From positions 62,001 through 126,000 of the forward strand of contig NZ_JAOEGB010000023.1 of NCBI RefSeq assembly GCF_025420585.1: 64,000 bases of DNA, read 5' to 3'. The notes below the pieces were generated by a model. The model did not search any database and had not been told where the DNA came from. It worked only from the letters and a program-made list of their open reading frames with translations. A program made the translations under genes and the position numbers. Positions within the stretch are counted from its first letter, which is position 1. Each line of letters begins with the position of its first letter. Positions 14,889-47,406 of this stretch are shown piece after piece. The stretch is from Planotetraspora sp. A-T 1434 (GTDB lineage Bacteria > Actinomycetota > Actinomycetes > Streptosporangiales > Streptosporangiaceae).

Positions 14889-16687
14889 CCGACGTCGCAT
14901 CGCCGTCGACCGTTACATTCTGGCTGCCGGGCAGGACGGAGGCGCCGCCCGAGACACCCGTCGTGCTGGCCGGGAGACAGCCCGACGTCGGGCTCCGGCT
15001 GCAGGCGACCCGTTCAGCCGACGTGTGCGTGCGTGAGCTCCGAGGCGGTGTCTTCGAGGTCGTGTTCCGCACGCTCGGCGAGCCGCTCGGTTTCACCGTG
15101 ACCATTCCCGCGACGGACGCCGCCGCCTGGTGGCGCCCCGGCAGCACCGTGCCGCACGCCACCATTCCGCCGTCATGGGAAGAGCCGTCCGACGCGACCG
15201 CCCTGCGGGGACTCCCGATCGGGGCCCTGCTCGCGACGCACGACGTCGCACGGCTGGTCTACGCGGTCGACGCCGGCACGAGCGTGACGAGGGTGCGGGC
15301 CGGTCTCGTGGAGGAGACCGCCGACTTCGCGATCATGGTCACGGTCGGCGCCTCCGGCACATCGGATCACGTGAGGCTGCTCCTGGACGCATCCGGCCGA
15401 TCCTTCGTGGAGGCCGTACCCGAGGCGGGACGGTGGCTCCAGGGGGAGGAAGGCCACCGTGCAGCGCCGGGGGCCGAGGATCCTGTCCTGTGCACCTGGT
15501 ACTTCGCGCATCAGCACGTCACAGCCGCCACCGTGCTCGCACAGGCCGATCGCGCGGTCGCGATGGGGTTCGGCACCGTCATCATCGATGACGGCTGGCA
15601 GACGAACTCGCACGAGCGAGGATACGGATCATGCGGCGACTGGGAGGCAGCGGAGGAGAAGTTCCCCGATGCGGCCGGCCTGGTCGAAGCGCTGCGCGGC
15701 CGGGGGCTGCGCACCGTGTGGTGGGTCGGCACTCCCTTCCTGGGCCATCAGGCGAAGGCCCGTCACCTGGGGCTCTCGACGCTCCGCGACAGGCCGGAAC
15801 TCCAGGCTGAGGTCCTGGACCCGCGCGACCCCTCCACCCGCGCCTACCTGGTCGGGCGGATGGAGGAGATAATCGCGAGGACGGCGGCGGATGGCCTGAA
15901 ACTCGACTTCCTGGAAGAGTTCGAGGACCAGGAGGCGCCGGGGTCCGTGGCAGCGGCCGTCGACACCATGTCCGAGATCGTCGACCGGCTGCGAGGCCTC
16001 GGGACCGAGCCTCTGATCGAGTTCCGCGAGCCGTACGTGCACCCCGCGGTGGGGCGGTTCGCCTCGATGATCCGCGTCGGCGACTGCCCGCTGAACGCGG
16101 TGCAGAACCGCGTCGGCATCCTCGACCTCCGCCTGGCGCGGCCGGGCACGCCCATCCACAGCGACCCGATCATGTGGGCCGAGGGTGACAGCCCGGAGCG
16201 GGTCGCCCATCACCTGATCAACGCCCTGCTGGGCGTGCCGCAGATCTCCATGGACCTGGTGGGGCTTCCCGGCGAACAGTCCGAGGCGCTGGCGTTCTGG
16301 CTCGGCGTCTGGCGCGAGTACCGCGACCTGCTGTTGCACGGCAGGCTCGCGCCGGAGCGTCCCGACCTGCTGTACCCGGTGGCCCGCGTCCATGACGGCG
16401 GACGGCACCTCGTCGCGAGGTACGCGCCCCACACGATTAAGATCCCGGAGGGGGACTGGACGGAACTGCTGGTCGCGAACGCCGACGACAGCCCCCCGAT
16501 CCTGTTGCACGAAGGGGACGAGGTGCGGGCCGGCCTGGAGATCTGGGACGCCAGGGGACGGCAGGTCGCCGATGGGGACGTCGTCCTGGGCCGGGGGCCC
16601 AGTGTGTTGACCGTACCCTCGGGAGGGCTCGCCCGGCTGCGGCGGCCCACGACCGCCGTCGCGGAGGCAAAGTGGGGTCACGCATGA
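14885..16687 (+). CDS. GH36-like alpha-galactosidase
   Basis: Predicted to release terminal alpha-linked galactose from imported oligosaccharides in the cytoplasm; no signal peptide. The frame is open further upstream, but the ATG at 14885 overlaps the stop of the permease gene (ATGA) and gives a 600-residue protein. An N-terminal beta-sandwich is followed by a TIM barrel with VIIDDGWQT (about 233-241), the nucleophile segment GLKLDFLEEF (Asp about 341) and a likely acid/base region RVGDCPLNAVQNR (about 396-408). The C-terminal region SDPIMWAEGDSPERVAHHL also fits clan GH-D. A related GH27/GH31-like specificity is not excluded. It overlaps the next gene by four bases, supporting one operon. 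Confidence 0.82.
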   Translation: MTDVASPSTVTFWLPGRTEAPPETPVVLAGRQPDVGLRLQATRSADVCVRELRGGVFEVVFRTLGEPLGFTVTIPATDAAAWWRPGSTVPHATIPPSWEEPSDATALRGLPIGALLATHDVARLVYAVDAGTSVTRVRAGLVEETADFAIMVTVGASGTSDHVRLLLDASGRSFVEAVPEAGRWLQGEEGHRAAPGAEDPVLCTWYFAHQHVTAATVLAQADRAVAMGFGTVIIDDGWQTNSHERGYGSCGDWEAAEEKFPDAAGLVEALRGRGLRTVWWVGTPFLGHQAKARHLGLSTLRDRPELQAEVLDPRDPSTRAYLVGRMEEIIARTAADGLKLDFLEEFEDQEAPGSVAAAVDTMSEIVDRLRGLGTEPLIEFREPYVHPAVGRFASMIRVGDCPLNAVQNRVGILDLRLARPGTPIHSDPIMWAEGDSPERVAHHLINALLGVPQISMDLVGLPGEQSEALAFWLGVWREYRDLLLHGRLAPERPDLLYPVARVHDGGRHLVARYAPHTIKIPEGDWTELLVANADDSPPILLHEGDEVRAGLEIWDARGRQVADGDVVLGRGPSVLTVPSGGLARLRRPTTAVAEAKWGHA

Positions 16688-19410
16688 CCGTTCCGGAGAA
16701 TCCGGGCATCGTCCTCGTGCCCCACACGCACTGGGACCGCGAGTGGTACGAGCCCTTCCAGGTGTTCCGCCACCGCCTTGTCGACGCGCTCGACCGCGTG
16801 CTCGACATGGCGGAGGCCGACCCCGCGTTCCGGTTCACCCTCGACGGGCAGACCGCGGCGATCGAGGACTACCTCGAGATCCGGCCCCAGCACATCGAGC
16901 GCGTGCGCGCGGCCGTACGGCGTGGGCAGCTCGCGCTCGGCCCCTGGCTCATCCTGCTCGACGAGTTCCTCTGCACCGGCGAGACGATCGTGCGCAACCT
17001 CCAGCTGGGATGGGCGGGCGCGGAACGCCTGGGCGGTGCGATGGACATCGGCTACCTGCCCGATATGTTCGGCCACATCGCGCAGATGCCGCAGATCCTC
17101 GCGCGGGCCGGCATCCGGCACGCCGCGTTCTGGCGCGGCGTGCCCGGGAGCGTGACCGGCCACTCGTTCCGCTGGGTCGCCCCCGACGGTTCGAGCGTGC
17201 GTGCGGAATATCTCTTCGACGGGTACGGCAACGCCCTCGACGTGCTGCTCGTCCCCGACGAGATCCCCCGCGCGCTGAGCGACTACCGTGCGCTCACCCG
17301 ATCCCGCTGGGGCGCCGACCCGATCCTCGGGATGGTGGGAACCGACCACATGGCGCCGCGTGCGGACCTGATGGACCTGGTCCGACGCTTCGACTCGCCG
17401 GACTTCCCCATCACGGTCGCCACCCTCGGCGAGTACATCCACGGGCTGCCGGACGACGGTGACCTGATGTGGGTCCACGGCGAGCTCCGCAGCCACGCCC
17501 GCGGCAACATCCTGCCGGGGGTCGTCTCCATTCGCCGCCGGCTCAAGGACGCCATGGCGGAGGCCGAGCGCATCGTCGGTGAGGCGGAACGCGTGTCCCT
17601 CGGCGTCCCTCTCGACCGGACGGCTCCGTTTCTTGATTTGGCCTGGCGCGACATCGTCGAGTCCAGCGCACACGACTCGGTGGTCGGGTCCGGCACCGAC
17701 GAGACGGTCGAACAAGTCGCGTCGCGTCTCGCCGAGGCGGCGCAGCTCGGTCGTGCCGTACGCGACCAGGCCGTCCGCGAGGCCGCCCTGGAGGTGCCGA
17801 GCGACGCGATCCTGGTCGTCAACACCCTCACCTCGCCGCGCACGATCGTCGTCGAGACCGACGTCGCGGCGCCGTCCGACGGGCTGGCGGTCAGCGCGAC
17901 GCTCCCCGACGGGCGACGGCTCCTTGTGCAGGAGTCGGACCGCGCGCCGGTGGTCCTCGGAGACGAGGTCTGGGAGGCCGCGGACGTCGAACGGGTCCTG
18001 CGGCGGATCCACCGCCGCGAGCTGTTCGGCCAGGAGATCGACAGGTACGAGATCGTCCCCGGCCGTCTCACCTTCTGGGTCGCGCGGGTGCCGTCGACAC
18101 CGGCGTTCGACCTGCTCGCCCTCCGGAGCGAGCTCCGCCGCGCGGTCGACGCGCACCAGGGCCCGTGGAACGTGCGGACCCTGGCGGAGCCGAGAAGGAG
18201 CGTCCTCATCCCCGTTCCCGTGGGCGCTTCCGGGAGCACCGCGGTGCGGATCGCCCAGGATCCGGGCGACGCGCCAGGCGGGCCTTCCGGTCCGGTGCCG
18301 CGCGCGACGGAGTCCCGCCTGGACAACGGGCTCGTCTCCGTGGAGGTGCTCGCAGACGGCACCTTCGACGTGCGCGGGCAGGACGGGACCGTGCTGCGCG
18401 GTGTCGGCCGTCTGGCCGACGGGGGAGACCGGGGCGACAGCTACAACTACGGCCCGCCGGCCTTCGATCGGCTGGTCGAGGTGCCGGCGAGCGTCGAGGT
18501 GCGGGTCGTGGAGTCCGGACCGGTCCGCGCCGCCGTCGAGATCGACCGGCGGTACGGACTGCCGGCCGCGTTGAGCGAAGACCCCGACCGCCGCTCGGAG
18601 GAGATCCTGGACATGCCGGTGCGCACGCGGGTCGAGCTGCGCGCCGGCGAGCCGTTCGCGCGCGTGTCGGTGTCGTTCGTGAACGTCGTGGCCGATCATC
18701 GGCTGAGACTGCACGTCCCCCTGCCGCGGCCCGCGTCGCACTCCTCGGCCGAGGGCCAGTTCTCGGTCACCGATCGCGGGCTGACGAACGAGGGCGGCTG
18801 GGGGGAATTCCCGATTCCCACTTATCCGGCCACCGGTTTCGTGTCCGCGGGCGACGCGACCGTCCTGCTGCGCGGCGCCACGGAGTACGAGCTCGTCGCG
18901 GACGGCGCGGAACTCGCCGTGACGCTTCTCCGCTCGGTCGGGTCGATCAGCGTCAACGTCCACCCGCTGCGGGACGAACCGGCCGCGTCCCAGATCCCGA
19001 TCCCCGGCGGCAGGGAACTCGGCAGCGAGATCAACGTGGATCTGGCCGTCCTCCCGTCCGCGGGCGGCTGGCACGCCGCCGACGCGGTCCGCTGGGCCGA
19101 GCACTTCCGCTCGCCAGGGCTGTGGCGGCACGGTTCGGCCGAGCCGGGTGCCGCGCTGTCACCGGCCCGGTCGGGCATCGAGGTCTCCGGCCAGGGCGTC
19201 CACGTGTCGGCGCTGCGCGCGGTGCCCACCGGGGTAGAGCTGCGGATCGTCGCCATGACGCCGGAGCCCACCGTGGCGACCGTCGCGGGCCCGCATGAGG
19301 ACGCGACCACCGTCGACCTGCTCGGCCGGCCCATCGAACGTCTCCCCGCCGCGTCCGTGCGAGAAATCCCACTGCGGCCGTGGGAAATCCGCACCCTCCA
19401 CCTGAGCTAG
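16684..19410 (+). CDS. GH38 alpha-mannosidase
   Basis: A zinc-dependent retaining alpha-mannosidase. The start ATG at 16684 overlaps the previous stop (ATGA). Near the N-terminus is the hallmark HTHWDREW (His14-Trp21), which supplies zinc ligands. GYLPDMFGHIAQMPQ (about 123-137) holds the nucleophile Asp, and SSAHDSVVGSGTDE (about 328-341) holds the last zinc His. The C-terminal half is beta-rich, as in the family. The 908-residue length is typical of bacterial GH38. No signal peptide, so it acts on imported glycans. Together with GH36, GH2 and GH110 it implies a mixed mannose/galactose oligosaccharide as substrate, for example an N-glycan fragment. Confidence 0.93.
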   Translation: MTVPENPGIVLVPHTHWDREWYEPFQVFRHRLVDALDRVLDMAEADPAFRFTLDGQTAAIEDYLEIRPQHIERVRAAVRRGQLALGPWLILLDEFLCTGETIVRNLQLGWAGAERLGGAMDIGYLPDMFGHIAQMPQILARAGIRHAAFWRGVPGSVTGHSFRWVAPDGSSVRAEYLFDGYGNALDVLLVPDEIPRALSDYRALTRSRWGADPILGMVGTDHMAPRADLMDLVRRFDSPDFPITVATLGEYIHGLPDDGDLMWVHGELRSHARGNILPGVVSIRRRLKDAMAEAERIVGEAERVSLGVPLDRTAPFLDLAWRDIVESSAHDSVVGSGTDETVEQVASRLAEAAQLGRAVRDQAVREAALEVPSDAILVVNTLTSPRTIVVETDVAAPSDGLAVSATLPDGRRLLVQESDRAPVVLGDEVWEAADVERVLRRIHRRELFGQEIDRYEIVPGRLTFWVARVPSTPAFDLLALRSELRRAVDAHQGPWNVRTLAEPRRSVLIPVPVGASGSTAVRIAQDPGDAPGGPSGPVPRATESRLDNGLVSVEVLADGTFDVRGQDGTVLRGVGRLADGGDRGDSYNYGPPAFDRLVEVPASVEVRVVESGPVRAAVEIDRRYGLPAALSEDPDRRSEEILDMPVRTRVELRAGEPFARVSVSFVNVVADHRLRLHVPLPRPASHSSAEGQFSVTDRGLTNEGGWGEFPIPTYPATGFVSAGDATVLLRGATEYELVADGAELAVTLLRSVGSISVNVHPLRDEPAASQIPIPGGRELGSEINVDLAVLPSAGGWHAADAVRWAEHFRSPGLWRHGSAEPGAALSPARSGIEVSGQGVHVSALRAVPTGVELRIVAMTPEPTVATVAGPHEDATTVDLLGRPIERLPAASVREIPLRPWEIRTLHLS

Positions 19411-29659: not shown

Positions 29660-32521
29660 GTGAGCCTGGCCGAGGGCGTGCGGTTCGGGGTGTTAGGGCC
29701 ACTTCGGGCTGAGGTGGAAGGGCGATCGGCGGGGCTGGGCGGACCCCGTCAGCGGGCTCTGCTGGCGCTGCTGCTGATCGCGCGGGGCAGGAATGTCTCG
29801 GCGGAGCGGATCCTCTCCGAGGTGTGGGAAGGCTCCCGGCTGCCTTCCGCGACGACGCTTCATGGGCACATCAATGATCTGCGCAGGGCGCTGGAGCCGG
29901 AACGGGCCCCGCGCGCTCCGGCCCGGCTGCTGGTGCGAGAGGGGCCCGGATACGCCCTTCGAGTCGCCCCCGCCGCGGTCGACGCCGAACGCTTCACCGA
30001 TCTGGGCGCGCGTGGCCGGCGGGCGCTGGACGACGACGAACCGGAACGCGCCGTGGAACTCCTCGGAGAAGCGCTCGCGCTGTGGCGGGGCCCGGCCTAC
30101 GCGGACATCGGCGAGGCCGCCTTCGCCGTGCCCGAGGCGAACCGGCTGGAGGATCTGCGGGCCACGGTGCAGGAGGACCGGCTCGCGGCCGTCATCGCGT
30201 CCGGACAGCACGCCGCTGCAGTGGGCGAGCTGGAGGCTCTGGTGGCGGAGCGGCCGCTGCGGGAGCGCGGTTGGGAGCTGCTCGCCCTGGCGCTCTACAG
30301 GTCCGGGCGGCAGGCCGACGCGCTCGCCGCGCTACGCGCCGTGCGCAGGCGGCTGGCCGACGAGCTCGGCATCGACCCGGGACGAGGACTGCGCGACCTG
30401 GAAGCGGCAGTATTGGCCCAGGACCCGCGGCTGGCCCCCGTAGCCGCGAGGGCCGGCGGCGTGTCCACCTCCGGGCCGCAGGCCGCCGCTCCGGCACCGC
30501 CTTCGGGCAATCTGCCGTTCGCGCTGTCCAGCTTCGTCGGCCGCGGCGGCGACCTCGCCGCCGTCGCCGCTCTGCTGGACGGTTCCCGGCTGGTCACACT
30601 CACCGGCCCGGGCGGGGTGGGCAAGACCCGCCTGTCCCTGGAGGCCGCACGCGCCCGTGCCGACGCCGACGGACCCTGGCTGGTGGAGCTGGCGGGTCTG
30701 CACACACCCGAACTGCTCACCGCCACCATCGCCGCCGCCCTGGGCCTGCCCGCGACGTCGTCCCCCGATCAGCTGGCCGGAATGCTGGCCCACCGCGACC
30801 TGCTGATCGTCCTGGACAACTGCGAGCACCTGCTGGTTCCCGCCGCCATGCTGGCGCACACCCTGCTGGCCCGCTGCGGTGGCGTGCGGATCCTGGCCAC
30901 CAGCCGCGAACCCCTGGGCATCACGGGGGAGACCGTCTACGAAGTACAGCCCCTGCACGCCGACACGGACGCCACAGAACTCTTCCTCCGCCGCGCGGCC
31001 GCCGCCCAGCCCGGCTGGGTGCCCGGGCCGGGCGAACTCGGCAGGATCGCCGACCTGTGCGCGGGGCTCGACGGCGTCCCGCTGGCCATCGAGCTCGCCG
31101 CCGCGCAGTGCCGTACGCTCTCCGTCGGCCAGATCGCCGATGCCCTGCGGGACCGCTTCACCCTGCTGGTGGGCGGGTCGGCCGGACGGCCGGACCGGCA
31201 CCGCACGCTGCTGGACACGGTCACCTGGAGCGACCAGCTGCTGCAGCCGGCGGAGCGCCGGCTCTTCTACCGGCTCGGCGTGCTCCGCGCCGGCTTCGAC
31301 CTCGAGGCGGCTGCCGCCGTCGGAGGAGTCGCTCCCGTGCTGGCTCCGCTTTCGGCGCTGGTCCGCAAATCGCTGGTCACCGCCGAACCTGGCACGGGGC
31401 CACGCCGCTACCGGATGCTGGAGACTCTGCGCCAGTACGCGCTGGGCGCGCTTTCTCCCGACGAACTGGCTGCCGCCGAGGAACGCCACCGCACGTGGGC
31501 CCTGACCCGGGCCGAGAACGCCGAACGCCATCTCCGGGGCCCGCAGGGGGCGGTGTTGCTGGAAGGGCTGAGCCGGGAGCAGCCGGAATTCCGGGCCGCT
31601 TTCGCCTCCGCGCTGGCGGCGGGTGACGGCGACTACGCGCTGCGGCTGGGCGCGGCGCTCCTCTGGTTCTGGTTCCGCATGGGCCATGTCGGGGAGGGGC
31701 TCGCCTGGCTGTCCGAGGCCTTCGCGGCCGCCCCGCAGGCCGGTCCGGGCATCCGGGCGCGTGCCCGGTTCGCTGTCGCCTCACTCCGCTACCTGGCCGG
31801 ACAGACCGCGCAGGCTCACGAGGCGGCTCGTACGGCCGTGGGGGAGGCGCGCGAGGCCGGCGACCTGGTGACCGAGGCCGGTGCGACCGCCTACGCCGGC
31901 TACTTGGGCCTGCTGGCCGGGGTTCCTCTCGACGCGGCGTCCCTCGCCCGCACGGCCGTCGAGATCGCCCGGCGCAGCGCCCAAGGCTGGCTGGAGGCCG
32001 AGACGCTCATGATCCAGGGCATGGTGCTCCGAATCCTGGGGGACCTGCCGGGCGCGGACGCCGTCTTCCAGGAGGCGCTCGCCGCTGCCCACACCAGCGG
32101 CCATGATTGGGTCGCGGACGGGGCGGCCTGGTGCGACATGAAAACGGCCTCGGACCGCGGGGACGGCTTCCGGGCACTGGCCATCGCGAGGGAGATCCTG
32201 GCCGCGATGGACCGTTACGGTGACATCTCCTTCTGGCTGGTGACGGTCCACAGCGCGGCCCGCGCGCTCGCGCTGACCGGACAGGCCGAGCAGGCAGCCG
32301 TGCTGATGGGCGCGGTGGAGGCCATCGGTGAGCGGGCCGGCGTCTCCCCGGAGCTGATGGACCCGATGGACGGGCCACGCGAGGCCGCCGCCGTACGCGG
32401 GGCACTGCCGCCGGACGAGTACGACCGCCACGCGGCCCGCGGGCGCACGCTGTCCCGGCGGGAGGCGAGCGCTTTGCTGGCCGACCTGATCGCACCTCGC
32501 CGAGTTCCAAGTGCGCCTTAG
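29660..32521 (+). CDS. AfsR/SARP-type regulator with NB-ARC ATPase and TPR-like region
   Basis: A large signal-integrating transcription activator. An N-terminal winged helix (VRFGVLGPLRAEVEGRS to about 95) and a BTAD helical domain (about 100-250, ending RRLADELGIDPGRGLRDLEA) are followed by an NB-ARC ATPase. Walker A is TGPGGVGKTRLS (about 315-326) and Walker B is LLIVLDNCEHLL, with GGVRILATSREPLG after it. A helical-repeat C-terminus runs to 953 aa. The start is GTG 29660, with CGGAGG upstream. It is a close paralogue of the protein at 33448-36357 (same LPFALSSFVGR, CEHLL and EQPEFRAAFASALAAGDGDY segments). The two bracket two small secreted genes. Confidence 0.92.
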   Translation: MSLAEGVRFGVLGPLRAEVEGRSAGLGGPRQRALLALLLIARGRNVSAERILSEVWEGSRLPSATTLHGHINDLRRALEPERAPRAPARLLVREGPGYALRVAPAAVDAERFTDLGARGRRALDDDEPERAVELLGEALALWRGPAYADIGEAAFAVPEANRLEDLRATVQEDRLAAVIASGQHAAAVGELEALVAERPLRERGWELLALALYRSGRQADALAALRAVRRRLADELGIDPGRGLRDLEAAVLAQDPRLAPVAARAGGVSTSGPQAAAPAPPSGNLPFALSSFVGRGGDLAAVAALLDGSRLVTLTGPGGVGKTRLSLEAARARADADGPWLVELAGLHTPELLTATIAAALGLPATSSPDQLAGMLAHRDLLIVLDNCEHLLVPAAMLAHTLLARCGGVRILATSREPLGITGETVYEVQPLHADTDATELFLRRAAAAQPGWVPGPGELGRIADLCAGLDGVPLAIELAAAQCRTLSVGQIADALRDRFTLLVGGSAGRPDRHRTLLDTVTWSDQLLQPAERRLFYRLGVLRAGFDLEAAAAVGGVAPVLAPLSALVRKSLVTAEPGTGPRRYRMLETLRQYALGALSPDELAAAEERHRTWALTRAENAERHLRGPQGAVLLEGLSREQPEFRAAFASALAAGDGDYALRLGAALLWFWFRMGHVGEGLAWLSEAFAAAPQAGPGIRARARFAVASLRYLAGQTAQAHEAARTAVGEAREAGDLVTEAGATAYAGYLGLLAGVPLDAASLARTAVEIARRSAQGWLEAETLMIQGMVLRILGDLPGADAVFQEALAAAHTSGHDWVADGAAWCDMKTASDRGDGFRALAIAREILAAMDRYGDISFWLVTVHSAARALALTGQAEQAAVLMGAVEAIGERAGVSPELMDPMDGPREAAAVRGALPPDEYDRHAARGRTLSRREASALLADLIAPRRVPSAP

Positions 32522-33342: not shown

Positions 33343-33447
33343 CGACCTGATCGTCCCCTCCGCCTCAGGGGGCCTCGGGGGGTTCTTGGATCGCGGCCGA
33401 TTCGGTTACCCTCGCACAAGATCTACGTGAGTGTGCGAGGGAGGCCG

Positions 33448-36357
33448 ATGGGACGGGTCGATGCCGCCGCTGTGCGGTTCGGGGTCCTGGGTCCGCTCCA
33501 GGCCGAGCGGGATGGACGGGCAATCCGTCTGGGAGGCCTCCGTCAGCGAGCGGTACTGGCCGTCCTGCTGATCGCCCGGGGGCGCATGGTGCCCGCCGAG
33601 CGGATCATGTCCGACGTGTGGGAGGGGTCCACTCTCCCGTCGCCGACCACCCTCCACGCGTACGTCTCCGAGTTGCGCAGGGCGCTGGAGCCGGAGCGGG
33701 AGGCGCGCGCACCCTCCGGGCTCCTGGTCCGTGAGGGGCCCGGGTACGCGCTGCGAGCCGATCCGTCCGGGGTCGACGCCGAACGGTTCGCCGACTTGGC
33801 CGTGGCCGGGCGGCGCGCCCTGACCGGCGGAAGACCAGGCGCCGCCGAGGAACTTCTCAGCGAGGCGCTGGAGCTGTGGCGCGGTCCCGCCTACGCGGAC
33901 TTCGCCGGGACCGGTTTCGCCCTGTCGGAGGCGGCACGGCTGGAGGGGCAGCGTGCCGCCGCATACGAGGACCGGCTGGCCGCCGCCATCGACCTCGGCC
34001 GGCATGCCGCCGCGATCGGCGAGTTGGAAGCGCTGGTGGCCGAGCAGCCGCTGCGGGAACGCGGCTGGGAACTGCTCGCCCTCGCGCTGTACAGGTCGGG
34101 GCGGCAGGCCGACGCCGGCGCGGCGTTGCGCGCGATACGGCGACGGCTCGCCGACGAGCTCGGCATCGACCCCGGCCCTGGACTGCGCGACCTGGAGTCG
34201 GCCGTGCTCGCCCAGGATCCGCGGCTCGACCCGCGGCTCGATCCGCCGCCCGCCCGCGCCGCCGACACCACTGGCACCACCACCGTCTTCCAGACCGACC
34301 CCGCCGCAGAGGCCCGGCGCCCGGCGCCCACCGGCAACCTGCCGTTCGCGTTGTCGAGCTTCGTCGGGCGTACGGAGGACATGGCCGCTGTCCGCGGCCT
34401 GCTCGCCGACTTCCGGCTGGTCACCCTCACCGGCCCGGGCGGGGTGGGCAAGACCCGCCTCGCATTGGAGACGGCCAGAGGCCGTACCGGCGACGACGAC
34501 GGGCCGTGGCTCGTGGAGCTGGCCGGTCTCACCTCGCCCGAACTGCTGCCGGCCACCATCGCCACCACCCTGGGGATCCCGGGAGCGGCCACCACCGAAG
34601 CGGTGGCGGCCGTGCTCGCCGGGCGCCGGCTGTTGCTGGTGCTCGACAACTGCGAGCACCTCTTGGACGCGACCAGTGCCCTCACCGGCGTACTGCTCAG
34701 CCGCTGTGGTGGCTTACGCGTGCTGGCCACCAGTCGCGAACCGCTGGGCGTGGAAGGCGAGGCGGTCTACGAGGTCCCGCCGCTCGACCCGGCCGGAGAC
34801 GGCACAGAACTCTTCCGAAGCAGGGTCGCCGCGGCAGTTCCCGCGTGGACCCCCGACCCGGGCGACATCGACCGGATCCCGAGGCTCTGCGCCGGTCTTG
34901 ACGGGATCCCGCTCGCCATCGAACTGGCCGCCGCGCAATGCCGGATGCTCTCCGTCGGCCAGATCGCCGACGCCCTGGAAAACCGCTTCGACGTGCTGGT
35001 CGACGGTCCGCTCGACCTGCCGGCCAGGCATCGTGCGCTGGAGGCCACCGTCGCCTGGAGCCACCAGTTGCTCGAGCCCGAGGAGCAACTGCTCTTCCAC
35101 CGCCTCAGCGTGTTCGCCGCCGGATTCGATCTCGACGCCGCGGGCGCGGTCGGGGCCCGGACTCCCGTCCTGCCTTCGCTGTCGGCCCTCGTTCGCAAGT
35201 CGCTGGTCAGCGTCGAGCCCGGCACCGCACCCCGCCGGTACCGGCTGCTGGAGACGCTGCGTCAGTACGCGCTGCGGGGGCTCGACCCGGACGACCTCTC
35301 GCAGACCCAGGGACGCCACCGGGCCTGGGCCCTGGCGCAGGCCGAAAGCGCCGAACGCAGGCTGCACGGCCCGCAGGCGGCCGAACTGCTGGCCCGGCTG
35401 ACCCGGGAGCAGCCGGAGTTCCGGGCCGCCTTCGCCTCCGCGCTGGCAGCCGGGGACGGAGACTACGCGCTGCGGCTGGGCGGCGCGCTGTACTGGTTCT
35501 GGTACCGCATGGGGCACATCGCCGAGGGCCTGTCCTGGATGTCCAGGTCTTTGGCCGCGGCGCCGGACGCCGAGCCGGCGGTCCGGGCGCGGGCGCGCCT
35601 CGCCGTGAGCGGGCTCAGCTATCTGGCCGGGAGGCCGACACAGGCGTACGAGGCCGTCGTGATGGCGGAACAGGAGGCCCAGGAGGCCGGCGACATGATC
35701 GTTGAGGCCTCGGCACGGGTCTACCAGACCCACTTCGGCGTGCTCGCCGGAATCCCCCTCGACGCTCCGGCACTGGCCCGCAGTGGCGTCGAGCTCGCGC
35801 GGCGTGCCGGAGAGGATTGGCTGATAGCCGAAGCGCTGATGGTGCAGGGCATGCTCGCCCGGGTCATGGGTGACCTTCCGGCCGCCGCCGCCGTACTGGC
35901 CGAAGCCGTCGCCACCGCCGACTCCTGCGGACACGACTGGGCGGCCGGTTCCTCGGCCTGGGCCGGGATGAAGACGGCATGCGATCGCGGCGACGGACGG
36001 CGCGCGCTGGAGATCGCGGCCGGCATCCTGGACGCGCTCGACCGCCACGAGGACGTCACGTCCCGGCTTGTGCTCATGCACACCGCTGCCCACGCACTCG
36101 TGCTGACCGGCCAGGCCGAGCAGGCGGCGGTCCTTATGGGGGGAGTGGATGCCGTCGGCCGCCGGGTGGGCTTCTCCCCGGAGCTGATGGACCCGCTGGA
36201 CGGCCCCCGCGAGGCCGCGGCCGTACGCGACGCCCTCACGCCGGACAGGTACGAACGCCTGGCGGCGCAGGGCCGCGAACTGTCCCTGCCGGAACTGACC
36301 GCCTTCCTGATAGTTCGGCTCGCGGAGTACTCCCGCCGCACAGGGTCGGACACGTGA
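33448..36357 (+). CDS. second AfsR/SARP-type regulator, paralogue of the 29660 gene
   Basis: Same architecture as its neighbour: winged helix (VRFGVLGPLQAERDGRAIRL), BTAD domain ending RRLADELGIDPGPGLRDLES, NB-ARC with TGPGGVGKTRLALE and LLLVLDNCEHLL, then helical repeats (969 aa). The ATG at 33448 is preferred over GTG 33427 because GAGGGAGG lies just before it. High similarity across the whole length indicates tandem duplication, with the two small secreted genes now in between. A sequence repeat (DPRLDPRLDP) after the BTAD domain is private to this copy. Its DNA targets are unknown. Confidence 0.92.
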   Translation: MGRVDAAAVRFGVLGPLQAERDGRAIRLGGLRQRAVLAVLLIARGRMVPAERIMSDVWEGSTLPSPTTLHAYVSELRRALEPEREARAPSGLLVREGPGYALRADPSGVDAERFADLAVAGRRALTGGRPGAAEELLSEALELWRGPAYADFAGTGFALSEAARLEGQRAAAYEDRLAAAIDLGRHAAAIGELEALVAEQPLRERGWELLALALYRSGRQADAGAALRAIRRRLADELGIDPGPGLRDLESAVLAQDPRLDPRLDPPPARAADTTGTTTVFQTDPAAEARRPAPTGNLPFALSSFVGRTEDMAAVRGLLADFRLVTLTGPGGVGKTRLALETARGRTGDDDGPWLVELAGLTSPELLPATIATTLGIPGAATTEAVAAVLAGRRLLLVLDNCEHLLDATSALTGVLLSRCGGLRVLATSREPLGVEGEAVYEVPPLDPAGDGTELFRSRVAAAVPAWTPDPGDIDRIPRLCAGLDGIPLAIELAAAQCRMLSVGQIADALENRFDVLVDGPLDLPARHRALEATVAWSHQLLEPEEQLLFHRLSVFAAGFDLDAAGAVGARTPVLPSLSALVRKSLVSVEPGTAPRRYRLLETLRQYALRGLDPDDLSQTQGRHRAWALAQAESAERRLHGPQAAELLARLTREQPEFRAAFASALAAGDGDYALRLGGALYWFWYRMGHIAEGLSWMSRSLAAAPDAEPAVRARARLAVSGLSYLAGRPTQAYEAVVMAEQEAQEAGDMIVEASARVYQTHFGVLAGIPLDAPALARSGVELARRAGEDWLIAEALMVQGMLARVMGDLPAAAAVLAEAVATADSCGHDWAAGSSAWAGMKTACDRGDGRRALEIAAGILDALDRHEDVTSRLVLMHTAAHALVLTGQAEQAAVLMGGVDAVGRRVGFSPELMDPLDGPREAAAVRDALTPDRYERLAAQGRELSLPELTAFLIVRLAEYSRRTGSDT

Positions 36358-44891: not shown

Positions 44892-45120
44892 GGGTGTGCC
44901 AGGGACGCCGAGGCGTCGCTCGACGCCCGGCGGTTGCCGCGGGTCGCCGGGCCCGTGCCGGCAGGCGGCAGTGACCTGGTCCTGGGCCGTCGCGTGCCGC
45001 GTCCTCGTTCGGGGCGTGACCGGTGCGCGCGCGGATCGGCAATCCAACCGAGTTCCAACCACACTCCAAGGTGAAGCCGACAGGATCGGGCCATCCCTCA
45101 AGATCGAAAGGAGATGGGAC
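44892..45120. other. leader region of the RiPP locus
   Basis: 229 bases with no gene. A hairpin at 44925-44952 probably terminates the DoxX-like gene, and a ribosome binding site AAAGGAGA lies just before the precursor start. No clear promoter was identified. Confidence 0.4.
44925..44952 (+). terminator. hairpin after the DoxX-like gene
   Basis: GCCCGGCG (44925-44932) pairs with CGCCGGGC (44945-44952) around a 12-base GC-rich loop, about 35 bases past the stop codon. It separates the DoxX-like gene from the RiPP locus. Confidence 0.5.
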
Positions 45121-45288
45121 ATGTCTGTCCGCATCGACGACCTCGGCTCGGCCGCGGAGCTTGCCGAGGACTTCCTGGACGATGTCATCGGCGGCAAGGG
45201 AGGGGTGCAGTCCATGTACCCCGTGTGCGCGTGGGCCGCGAGCACCCACAGCAATGGGACCTCCGACCCCATCGACATCATGGTCTGA
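45121..45288 (+). CDS. RiPP precursor peptide, 55 residues
   Basis: A ribosomal peptide precursor inferred from size and context. The leader is acidic and helical (MSVRIDDLGSAAELAEDFLD, then DVIGGKGG), ending in a Gly-rich site where cleavage could occur. The candidate core is VQSMYPVCAWAASTHSNGTS followed by DPIDIMV. It contains one Cys, six Ser/Thr and two Asp, which could give ester or amide crosslinks as in graspetides. AAAGGAGA precedes the ATG. It lies 88 bases before an ATP-grasp gene, whose product is the likely modifying enzyme. The leader/core boundary is a guess. Confidence 0.8.
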   Translation: MSVRIDDLGSAAELAEDFLDDVIGGKGGVQSMYPVCAWAASTHSNGTSDPIDIMV

Positions 45289-45376
45289 CAGATCGTCCTC
45301 CGACCTGCGATGTAAGGCGGGGAACGGCGTGTCCGACGTGCTGCGGGCACGCCGTTCCTCCGGTGGGGAGCGCGTG

Positions 45377-46378
45377 ATGATTCTGATACTCAGCGGCAGA
45401 GGTGACAGATCGGTGGAGATGGTCACCCCGAAGCTCGTCGAACGAGGCGCCGAGTTCCTCTGGTGGGATCCGGGTGACTACCCGGCCGAGAGCCGGATCA
45501 CCTCGCGGCTCACCGGCGGGTCCTGGCGGCACACCCTGCACACGGGCGGCCGGGACTACGACACCTCCCTGTTCAGCGCGGTCTGGAACCGCCGTCCCTC
45601 CCGGTCGCGCGCCCCGGATTCCGTCACCGACGCCGACCACAGGAAGTACGTCGAGAAGATCTCAAGAATTCTGGTGTACGGCTGGGAGGACACCGTCGAC
45701 AGCCGCTGGTTCCCCGGCAGGACCATGGACATCGTCCGCTTCCAGAACAAGCTCTTCAACCTGGCCGCGGCGGCCAGACTCGGCTTCGCCACGCCCGAGA
45801 CCCTGATCACCAACGACGTCGAGGAACTGATCCCGTTCTGGGAGGCGGCGCAGGGTGAGCTGATCGCCAAGGAGGTGGAGTTCGCCGAGTTCCAGATCGA
45901 CGGGGAAGACCACGCCTTCTACAGCACTCCGGTCACCCGCCGCCACCTCACCGACCGGCACCGGCTCGCCGTCTCCCCGGCCATTCTCCAGCCGTACATA
46001 AGGAAGTCCATCGAGCTGCGAATCACGATCGTGGGAGAGCAGGTGTTCGCCGCCGAGATCCACTCTCAGGCGTCCCGAGCGACCCGGCACGATTACCGCC
46101 ACCACGAATGGAGCTTCTCGGTGTACGGCGTGCACCGGCTGCCCGACGACGTCGAACGCCGGTGCCTGGCGCTGACCGCGTCCCTTGGCCTGCCGTACGG
46201 CTGCATCGACATGATCCTCACCCCTGAGGGCCGCTACGTCTTCCTGGAGATCAACCCCACCGGCCAGTGGGGCTGGATCGAAGCGGCCACCGGCCTTCCC
46301 ATCTCCGCGGCGATCGCCGACTGGCTCGTCGCGGCGGAACCCCGGCTTCCGCCCCGTCCCCAAGTGACCATCCCATGA
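45377..46378 (+). CDS. ATP-grasp peptide maturase (graspetide-synthetase-like)
   Basis: Predicted to activate carboxylates of the precursor peptide with ATP and join them to hydroxyl or amino groups. The 333-residue product opens MILILSGRGDRSVEMVTPKL and includes VWNRRPS, MDIVRFQNKLFNLAAAARLG, FATPETLITND, LIAKEVEF, LAVSPAILQPYIRKSIELRI, GLPYGCIDMILTPEGRYVFL and EINPTGQWGWIEAATGLPIS. The last two contain the metal/ATP ligands of ATP-grasp enzymes (DM..., E.NP.GQW). The frame is open to 45023, but ATG 45377 has GGGGAG at the right distance. It overlaps the next gene by ATGA. Confidence 0.9.
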   Translation: MILILSGRGDRSVEMVTPKLVERGAEFLWWDPGDYPAESRITSRLTGGSWRHTLHTGGRDYDTSLFSAVWNRRPSRSRAPDSVTDADHRKYVEKISRILVYGWEDTVDSRWFPGRTMDIVRFQNKLFNLAAAARLGFATPETLITNDVEELIPFWEAAQGELIAKEVEFAEFQIDGEDHAFYSTPVTRRHLTDRHRLAVSPAILQPYIRKSIELRITIVGEQVFAAEIHSQASRATRHDYRHHEWSFSVYGVHRLPDDVERRCLALTASLGLPYGCIDMILTPEGRYVFLEINPTGQWGWIEAATGLPISAAIADWLVAAEPRLPPRPQVTIP

Positions 46379-47406
46379 CGACCCAAACGCCCGACACCGC
46401 CTTCGCCGCCGTGCTGGCCGAGGCCGTGGACCTGCTCCGGACGCTCTCACGCAGGCGCCCGGATGTGCCCGGCGCCCGGCGGGCCGTCGAGCGGTGGCGT
46501 GCCGCCAACCCCGGCACCCGGGCTCAGCTCGTCGCCGACGTCCGGCCCGGCAGCCCCATCGTGGACTACGACCTGGTGCTCAGCCACCCCGGCGGCGGGA
46601 CCGTGGCGCTGACCGCCCCCGCCGACGACGGTGTGCCCTGGACCGTCGACCATTCCACCCACTGGGCCTCCGGCAGGCTGCTCACCGTCAACGACCAGGA
46701 ACTTCTGATCCAGAACGCGCTGCTGACCCTGCGCGCCCGCGAGCAGACCATCCAGGAAGAGCTCGTCGAGCACTGCATCCTCACCGAGCTGGCCGCGCGG
46801 GAAACCGAACCGACCCAGTCCGAGCTGCAGGAGGCCTCCGACGCCTTCCGGCTCCAGCGAGGGCTGCGCGGCCGCGCCCAGACGCTGCGCTGGCTGGAAA
46901 ACGTGGGGCTGACGCCGTCGGCCTACGACAATCACATCCACGGCCTGGCGCTCAGACGCCGCCTGCGGCAGCGGGTGGAGCACGAGACGGCGCGGGACTA
47001 CCTGGAGCGCCATCCATCGGAGTTCGACCACGTCTGGGCTGTATGGGCGGTCGGGCCCAAGGACCGCCTCACCGCTGTCGCCGTCCAGGACGATCCCCTG
47101 ACCGCCCTTGCCCACGTACTGCTGTCCCCGCCGCCCTCGCCGGGTGGCGGGGGCGGCGACGACCTGACCGTCACCACAGCCCACCGCGCTGCCCGGGAGA
47201 TGCCCGAGCCCTTCCGCGACGCCGCCGCCGGGGCCGTGGTGGGTCCCGTACCCCACGGTGAGGACCACCTGTTCGGAATCGTCCGCGGACGACGCCCGGC
47301 CGACCCCGAGGATCCCGGAACGCTCGCCGCCGCGGGACGGGCGGGCTTCGCCGCCTTCATGGCCGAGCAACGCGCCAAGGCCGAAATCACCTGGTACTGG
47401 CTCTGA
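46375..47406 (+). CDS. parvulin/SurA-like peptide maturation protein
   Basis: The 343-residue product is soluble. Its N-terminal half has a helical region (ERWRAANPGTRAQLVADVRP, then QELLIQNALLTLRAREQTIQ, EELVEHCILTELAARETEPT, SELQEASDAFRLQRGLRGRA) like the SurA/trigger-type chaperone fold. The C-terminus resembles a degenerate PpiC rotamase (REMPEPFRDAAAGAVVGPVP, EDHLFGIVRGRRPADPED). I recall this family being annotated as a 'peptide maturation system protein' next to peptide precursors; the exact model must be checked. The start overlaps the ATP-grasp stop (ATGA), so all three genes form one operon. Confidence 0.82.
   Translation: MTTQTPDTAFAAVLAEAVDLLRTLSRRRPDVPGARRAVERWRAANPGTRAQLVADVRPGSPIVDYDLVLSHPGGGTVALTAPADDGVPWTVDHSTHWASGRLLTVNDQELLIQNALLTLRAREQTIQEELVEHCILTELAARETEPTQSELQEASDAFRLQRGLRGRAQTLRWLENVGLTPSAYDNHIHGLALRRRLRQRVEHETARDYLERHPSEFDHVWAVWAVGPKDRLTAVAVQDDPLTALAHVLLSPPPSPGGGGGDDLTVTTAHRAAREMPEPFRDAAAGAVVGPVPHGEDHLFGIVRGRRPADPEDPGTLAAAGRAGFAAFMAEQRAKAEITWYWL

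Follow-up and report, generated by a model that had tools for sequence, protein, structure and literature searches.

The window analysed here, a 64,000-nucleotide stretch of the Planotetraspora sp. A-T 1434 genome, carries an operon composed of a precursor peptide gene, an ATP-grasp ligase gene and a TIGR04500 gene. The genes and associated elements are listed below.

29660–32521 (953 aa) and 33427–36357 (976 aa): two large AfsR/SARP-type regulators with a BTAD domain
45043–45069, forward strand: TCCAA-N6-TCCAA-N6-TCCAA triple direct repeat with an 11-bp period, candidate SARP/AfsR-type activator site
45121–45288, forward strand: precursor gene, 55 aa (homologous peptides at the equivalent place in the ten nearest loci)
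45319–45360, forward strand: stem-loop with a 17-bp stem and 8-nt loop, between the precursor stop and the ligase start
45377–46378, forward strand: graspetide synthetase (MvdD/MvdC-type ATP-grasp ligase), 333 aa (TIGR04187, PF21068, PDB and AF2)
46375–47406, forward strand: TIGR04500 partner protein (MirC family), 343 aa (TIGR04500 profile, AF2 and SurA profile match)

The locus is real: the compact RiPP arrangement of precursor, ATP-grasp gene and third gene given in the preliminary description was recovered with the same coordinates. According to the ORF calls, the ligase gene runs from the ATG at 45377 to the stop codon at 46376–46378, and its ATGA overlap with the TIGR04500 gene (46375–46378) bears out the coupling proposed there.

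The precursor ATG at 45121 is preceded by GAAAGGAGATGGGAC. The peptide consists of a leader (residues 1–25, MSVRIDDLGSAAELAEDFLDDVIGG) and a core (residues 26–55, KGGVQSMYPVCAWAASTHSNGTSDPIDIMV), and gave zero matches against NCBIfam and Pfam models. A six-frame scan of the 64 kb found a single occurrence of the leader pattern and a single one of the core pattern, and a homologous peptide occurs in the ten nearest relatives; on sequence grounds, the precursor ORF is therefore not a chance one. In all ten of these loci (10/10), the ligase and the TIGR04500 gene are retained together with a peptide that has a double-glycine leader and is encoded just upstream of the ligase; loss of the peptide from this position in homologous loci had been named beforehand as an observation that would speak against the reading. 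The 55-residue peptide stands as originally described, but the end of its leader is most likely residue 25, at the first Gly-Gly, rather than beyond GGKGG, because all related leaders have their fixed end there.

The triple repeat, located 52–78 bp upstream of the precursor, was the sole match in the window and did not appear in 100 shuffles. It was found at nearly equal distance in L036 and L073, with two copies in L037, and was absent from L070, L038 and L035. SARP regulators bind 11-bp repeats, and several related loci have BTAD/AfsR-type regulators as neighbours; by analogy, the repeat is a candidate SARP binding site, on which the two regulators encoded in the window could possibly act as activators. 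The precursor–ligase intergenic stretch had a folding z of -3.1 versus shuffles, and a stem of different sequence was present at the equivalent place in nearly all related loci examined. This strong stem-loop probably acts as an attenuator or protects the 3′ end of the precursor message, and with it the precursor would probably be made in excess over the enzymes.

The ATP-grasp ligase and its TIGR04500 partner

The ligase matched TIGR04187 (4.8e-69, 232.9 bits) below the curated cut-off of 350, which is no argument against function because the rosaritide-type ligase of L177 is likewise below it (245.8). It scored 200–202 bits against the MvdC and MvdD models, and both PF21068 (MvdD pre-ATP-grasp) and PF08443 were above cut-off. 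A primary-metabolism ATP-grasp ligase (RimK, LysX) was rejected, since such models gave at most 39 bits (RimK, 39) against 200–233 for the graspetide models. The PDB relatives were the graspetide synthetases 5ig8, 5ig9, 7m4s, 7mgv and 9bou (MdnB, MdnC, AMdnB, CdnC and PruB), and the AF2 model (pLDDT 89.6) had MdnC and CdnC as its top Foldseek matches. K125, K165, E213, R215, D239-Y-R241, D278, E291 and N293 are all present; the ATP lysines, R215, the D[FYW]R motif and the Mg-binding D/E/N residues are thus complete, whereas they are partly missing from a paralogue at C57 of the same genome. The alignment suggests that the published "DFR" motif corresponds to D239-Y-R241 rather than to an ELR motif. 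The sequence, tree placement, predicted structure and intact catalytic residues all identify the ATP-grasp protein as a graspetide synthetase. This agrees with the preliminary description, in which grouping with a primary-metabolism ligase was named as the contrary outcome; the protein instead falls among graspetide synthetases.

The third gene product scored 236.6 bits against TIGR04500 (cut-off 180). TIGR04500 had been listed among genes near ATP-grasp loci in an earlier survey (PMC8939145). One family member, MirC, belongs to the biosynthetic system (MirA/MirB/MirC/MirD) of rosaritide, a group 21 graspetide of Micromonospora rosaria; rosaritide synthesis requires the ligase MirB together with MirC, and the pair copurifies as an active complex (Carter et al. 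2026, PMC13097080). The TIGR04500 gene adjoins 68 of 69 related ligases, with an overlap or a gap within 40 nt in most.

The AF2 model of the partner (pLDDT 90.9) gave Foldseek matches to SurA, Cj1289 (3rgc) and PrsA, whereas its sequence alone gave only chance matches against the PDB. It resembles these proteins in its SurA-like helical chaperone part and degenerate parvulin domain, and differs from them in an extra N-domain, in the loss of the parvulin histidines and in having no signal peptide visible by eye. The TIGR04500 family profile aligns weakly to SurA over the chaperone part and GDIVGPIRSGVGFHILKV, where the His is lost. In the SurA profile alignment and column counts, the active-site histidines are absent: LFGI takes the place of FHI(L/I), 41/51 sequences having Gly at the histidine column, and the HILV histidine of the first strand is not conserved in the family. 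Some family members nevertheless had weak Pfam matches to Rotamase/Rotamase_2 and SurA_N. For MirC, the published description gives a SurA-like chaperone part and an N-domain weakly resembling an RRE, and no PPIase-domain similarity was seen in the corresponding part (PMC13097080). The parvulin domain may be a dead parvulin kept as a scaffold, a proposal that goes beyond the 2026 paper. Because the parvulin active site is degenerate, the product is better named a partner chaperone than an active isomerase or, as in the earlier label, a "parvulin-like maturation protein".

Exactly four ligases of the TIGR04187 kind are encoded in the genome, and all four form a pair with a TIGR04500 gene. Among the further graspetide loci, L110 (C1) and L111 (C58) have the cores EPRELGNGATEDPEGGFSDYYPWCG and QRVEVSMGTYIDPPGVCCAD, respectively. 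The C57 pair (L104, about 16440–18340), like L109, lies inside a branched-chain 2-oxoacid dehydrogenase operon; in L104 the usual precursor place is empty, and the D[FYW]R motif and metal-binding positions (D to H, N to D) are no longer intact in the ligase, which is probably a dead enzyme. At L081, L091, L093, L103, L121, L124, L129–L136 and L145, the dehydrogenase locus retains the TIGR04500 gene only, the ligase being gone, and in several of them the N-domain is also missing. Such loci may be a decay series or reflect a second role of TIGR04500 proteins without a ligase.

Related loci and conservation of the core

A relative of the partner was found in 81 of 299 genomes of the Streptosporangiaceae, the family to which the Planotetraspora genome and its named relatives (Spongiactinospora, Herbidospora mongoliensis, Sphaerimonospora thailandensis, Nonomuraea zeae and N. 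solani) belong. The 73-sequence ligase tree placed the ligase of the window in a clade of six (class A, support 100/99), separate from the rosaritide clade; five further ligases form its sister clade (class B; 100/100 for A and B together). A wider hunt through two genera yielded no class A loci beyond the six.

The preliminary description had proposed aligning precursors across genome neighbourhoods; an alignment of the six class A precursors showed five invariant core residues. From the Cys onward, the six cores align without gaps: CAWAASTHSNGTSDPID (window), CAWVSSSLGGGRGDPMD, CMWVASSLGGGKSDPID, CIWLASSLYGGKSDPID, CAWTASAHQGQTVDKRD and CLWTASSHLGQTVDRQD. All follow the pattern C-x-W-x-x-S-(x7)-D-x-x-D, whose invariant columns Cys1, Trp3, Ser6, Asp14 and Asp17 correspond to Cys36, Trp38, Ser41, Asp49 and Asp52 of the precursor. 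Five invariant columns were obtained in 0 of 20000 row shuffles, a count that treats six related sequences as independent. Core position 7 (Thr42 in the window) is Ser or Thr in five of the six and Ala in L037. Ser41 is conserved as a residue and not as a codon, because both AGC and TCC are used among class A. In the leader, changes at third codon positions outnumber those at second positions 1.9-fold, a bias not seen in the core; the leader is conserved and the core fast-changing with fixed residues.

Class B cores include CTSINNGQPDTCWD and similar sequences, nearly all with a Cys; L073 has no Cys and carries three Ser in its place. Cores of other clades include SxSWxxGGKPAEW, EWxxSAWTLDDVPYEWW, RPMERCYHTxGT...DY, DPPGxC and more, and within one actinobacterial family the enzyme–partner pair occurs with seven or more core patterns that differ visibly. 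Tandem precursor genes, two or three with differing cores, occur in L076, L077, L105, L123, L140 and L141.

Predicted product and maturation

The locus almost certainly makes a ribosomal peptide with side-chain rings. We read it, with a probability of about 0.87, as a partner-dependent graspetide operon in which ligase and TIGR04500 partner would form Ser/Thr–Asp macrolactones, with cleavage and export in trans. Partner dependence is expected by homology to MirB/MirC. The ligase, complexed with the chaperone-like partner, would phosphorylate core Asp side chains, and Ser/Thr hydroxyls would attack the activated Asp residues to give macrolactones. The predicted donors are the invariant Ser41 and, probably, Thr42, and the acceptors Asp49 and Asp52. 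One or two macrolactones are predicted, with ring count and connectivity deduced from the pattern; a single ring is possible because the second donor is not invariant. After cleavage behind Gly25, the unmodified core (26–55) would have a monoisotopic mass of 3121.43 Da and the product one of 3103.42 Da (one ring) or 3085.41 Da (two rings). The invariant Cys and Trp fit no role in this simple macrolactone picture.

Other linkages were weighed against this reading. Graspetide synthetases make both esters and amides (PMC13097080), and Lys occupies core-block position 12 in L036 and L038, so that a genuine graspetide synthetase might here form macrolactams or another linkage, involving for example Lys26 or the C-terminal carboxylate; yet the remaining four of the six cores have Thr or Arg at position 12, Lys26 is not conserved and the rosaritide linkages are exclusively macrolactones, and we regard this as unlikely. 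In another reading, Cys36 would be a donor, giving a native macrothioester beside a macrolactone, with Cys36 and Ser41 paired with Asp49 and Asp52. These are the only two invariant nucleophiles for two invariant Asp residues, the Cys is present in all six class A cores and in nearly all of class B, and non-native thioesters can be formed by synthetases (PMC13097080). Against it stand L073 of the sister clade, whose core lacks the Cys, and the alternative that the Cys serves binding or an intermolecular disulfide. We know of no native graspetide thioester, and consider this chemistry rather improbable; if true, it would, as far as we know, be new to natural graspetides.

Two further readings concern the activity of the proteins. 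Pro34 and Pro50 of the core, with the weak Rotamase and SurA_N matches in the family, could be taken to mean that the third gene product is an active peptidyl-prolyl isomerase flipping a core Pro. The replaced and non-conserved parvulin histidines, the lack of Pro in the D-x-x-D turn of the L037 and L035 cores, and the trans prolines of rosaritide together with the requirement of MirC for ligase activity itself (PMC13097080) make this very improbable. That the locus is decaying or non-functional, as the C57 pair of the same genome with its dead ligase and missing precursor might hint, is hardly to be expected either, because the catalytic residues, frames, start sites and precursor are all intact in the window.

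The preliminary description had noted no protease or dedicated transporter in the operon, and none was found there; a local search for transporters or remnants across the window returned unrelated ATPase-domain matches only. Most relatives have one in place, a peptidase-containing ABC transporter following the partner gene in about 50 related loci. In the Planotetraspora genome, a single C39 peptidase domain is encoded, beside the C1 pair, although a second C39 gene may lie in a gap of this draft (136 contigs, 98% complete). Likewise, the genomes G865, G034, G180 and G287, whose class A/B loci are without a local transporter, all carry C39 elsewhere. This distribution makes it probable that the transporter-protease acts from another locus, in trans: the leader would be cut behind Gly25 and the peptide then exported by the C39 peptidase/ABC transporter of another graspetide locus in the same genome. 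This suggests that one transporter-protease serves several graspetide loci.

Comparison with rosaritide and other known systems

Rosaritide is the only characterised peptide from an ATP-grasp ligase needing a TIGR04500 chaperone, and its three linkages (S8–D22, S9–D26 and T11–D24) are all macrolactones (PMC13097080). Rosaritide-type loci (L177 and L178) were found in another actinobacterial family, with a core, LPRNGAGSSKTIDDIPGGGRPDTDTDFD, that fits the published residue numbering. The operon in the window shares with the mir locus the gene order precursor–ATP-grasp–TIGR04500, the double-glycine leader and the ligase and partner families, and shares with L177/L178 the hairpin after the precursor. 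Identity to the L177 type was 37% for the ligase (pairwise E 5e-66) and 31% for the partner.

The two systems differ in the core, where rosaritide has three acceptors in D-x-D-x-D and donors in SSxT, as opposed to two acceptors in D-x-x-D and donors in S(S/T) here; the SSxT...DxDxD pattern is not matched by the core of the window, and the invariant Cys and Trp are a feature of class A. The ligase belongs to a separate, well-supported clade, and the operon lacks a transporter-protease (PCAT). The earlier statement that the core is unlike known graspetides therefore holds against rosaritide, which is the comparison made here among 43 published groups. The general system of ATP-grasp ligase and TIGR04500 helper was demonstrated experimentally in 2026, and we found no report of the present core pattern. 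The three-gene system is suited to asking whether the partner is generally needed and how it shapes ring choice.

To our knowledge, microviridin loci have no TIGR04500 partner. The ligase has the fold and catalytic residues of MdnB/MdnC (5ig8, 5ig9) and CdnC (7mgv); it differs from the microviridin enzymes by its identity of about 30%, and the locus by having neither the TxKYPSD core nor a second ligase. PruB of Streptomyces coelicolor (9bou) is likewise an actinobacterial MvdD-like ATP-grasp ligase, but falls outside the TIGR04500-linked ligase clade in the tree.
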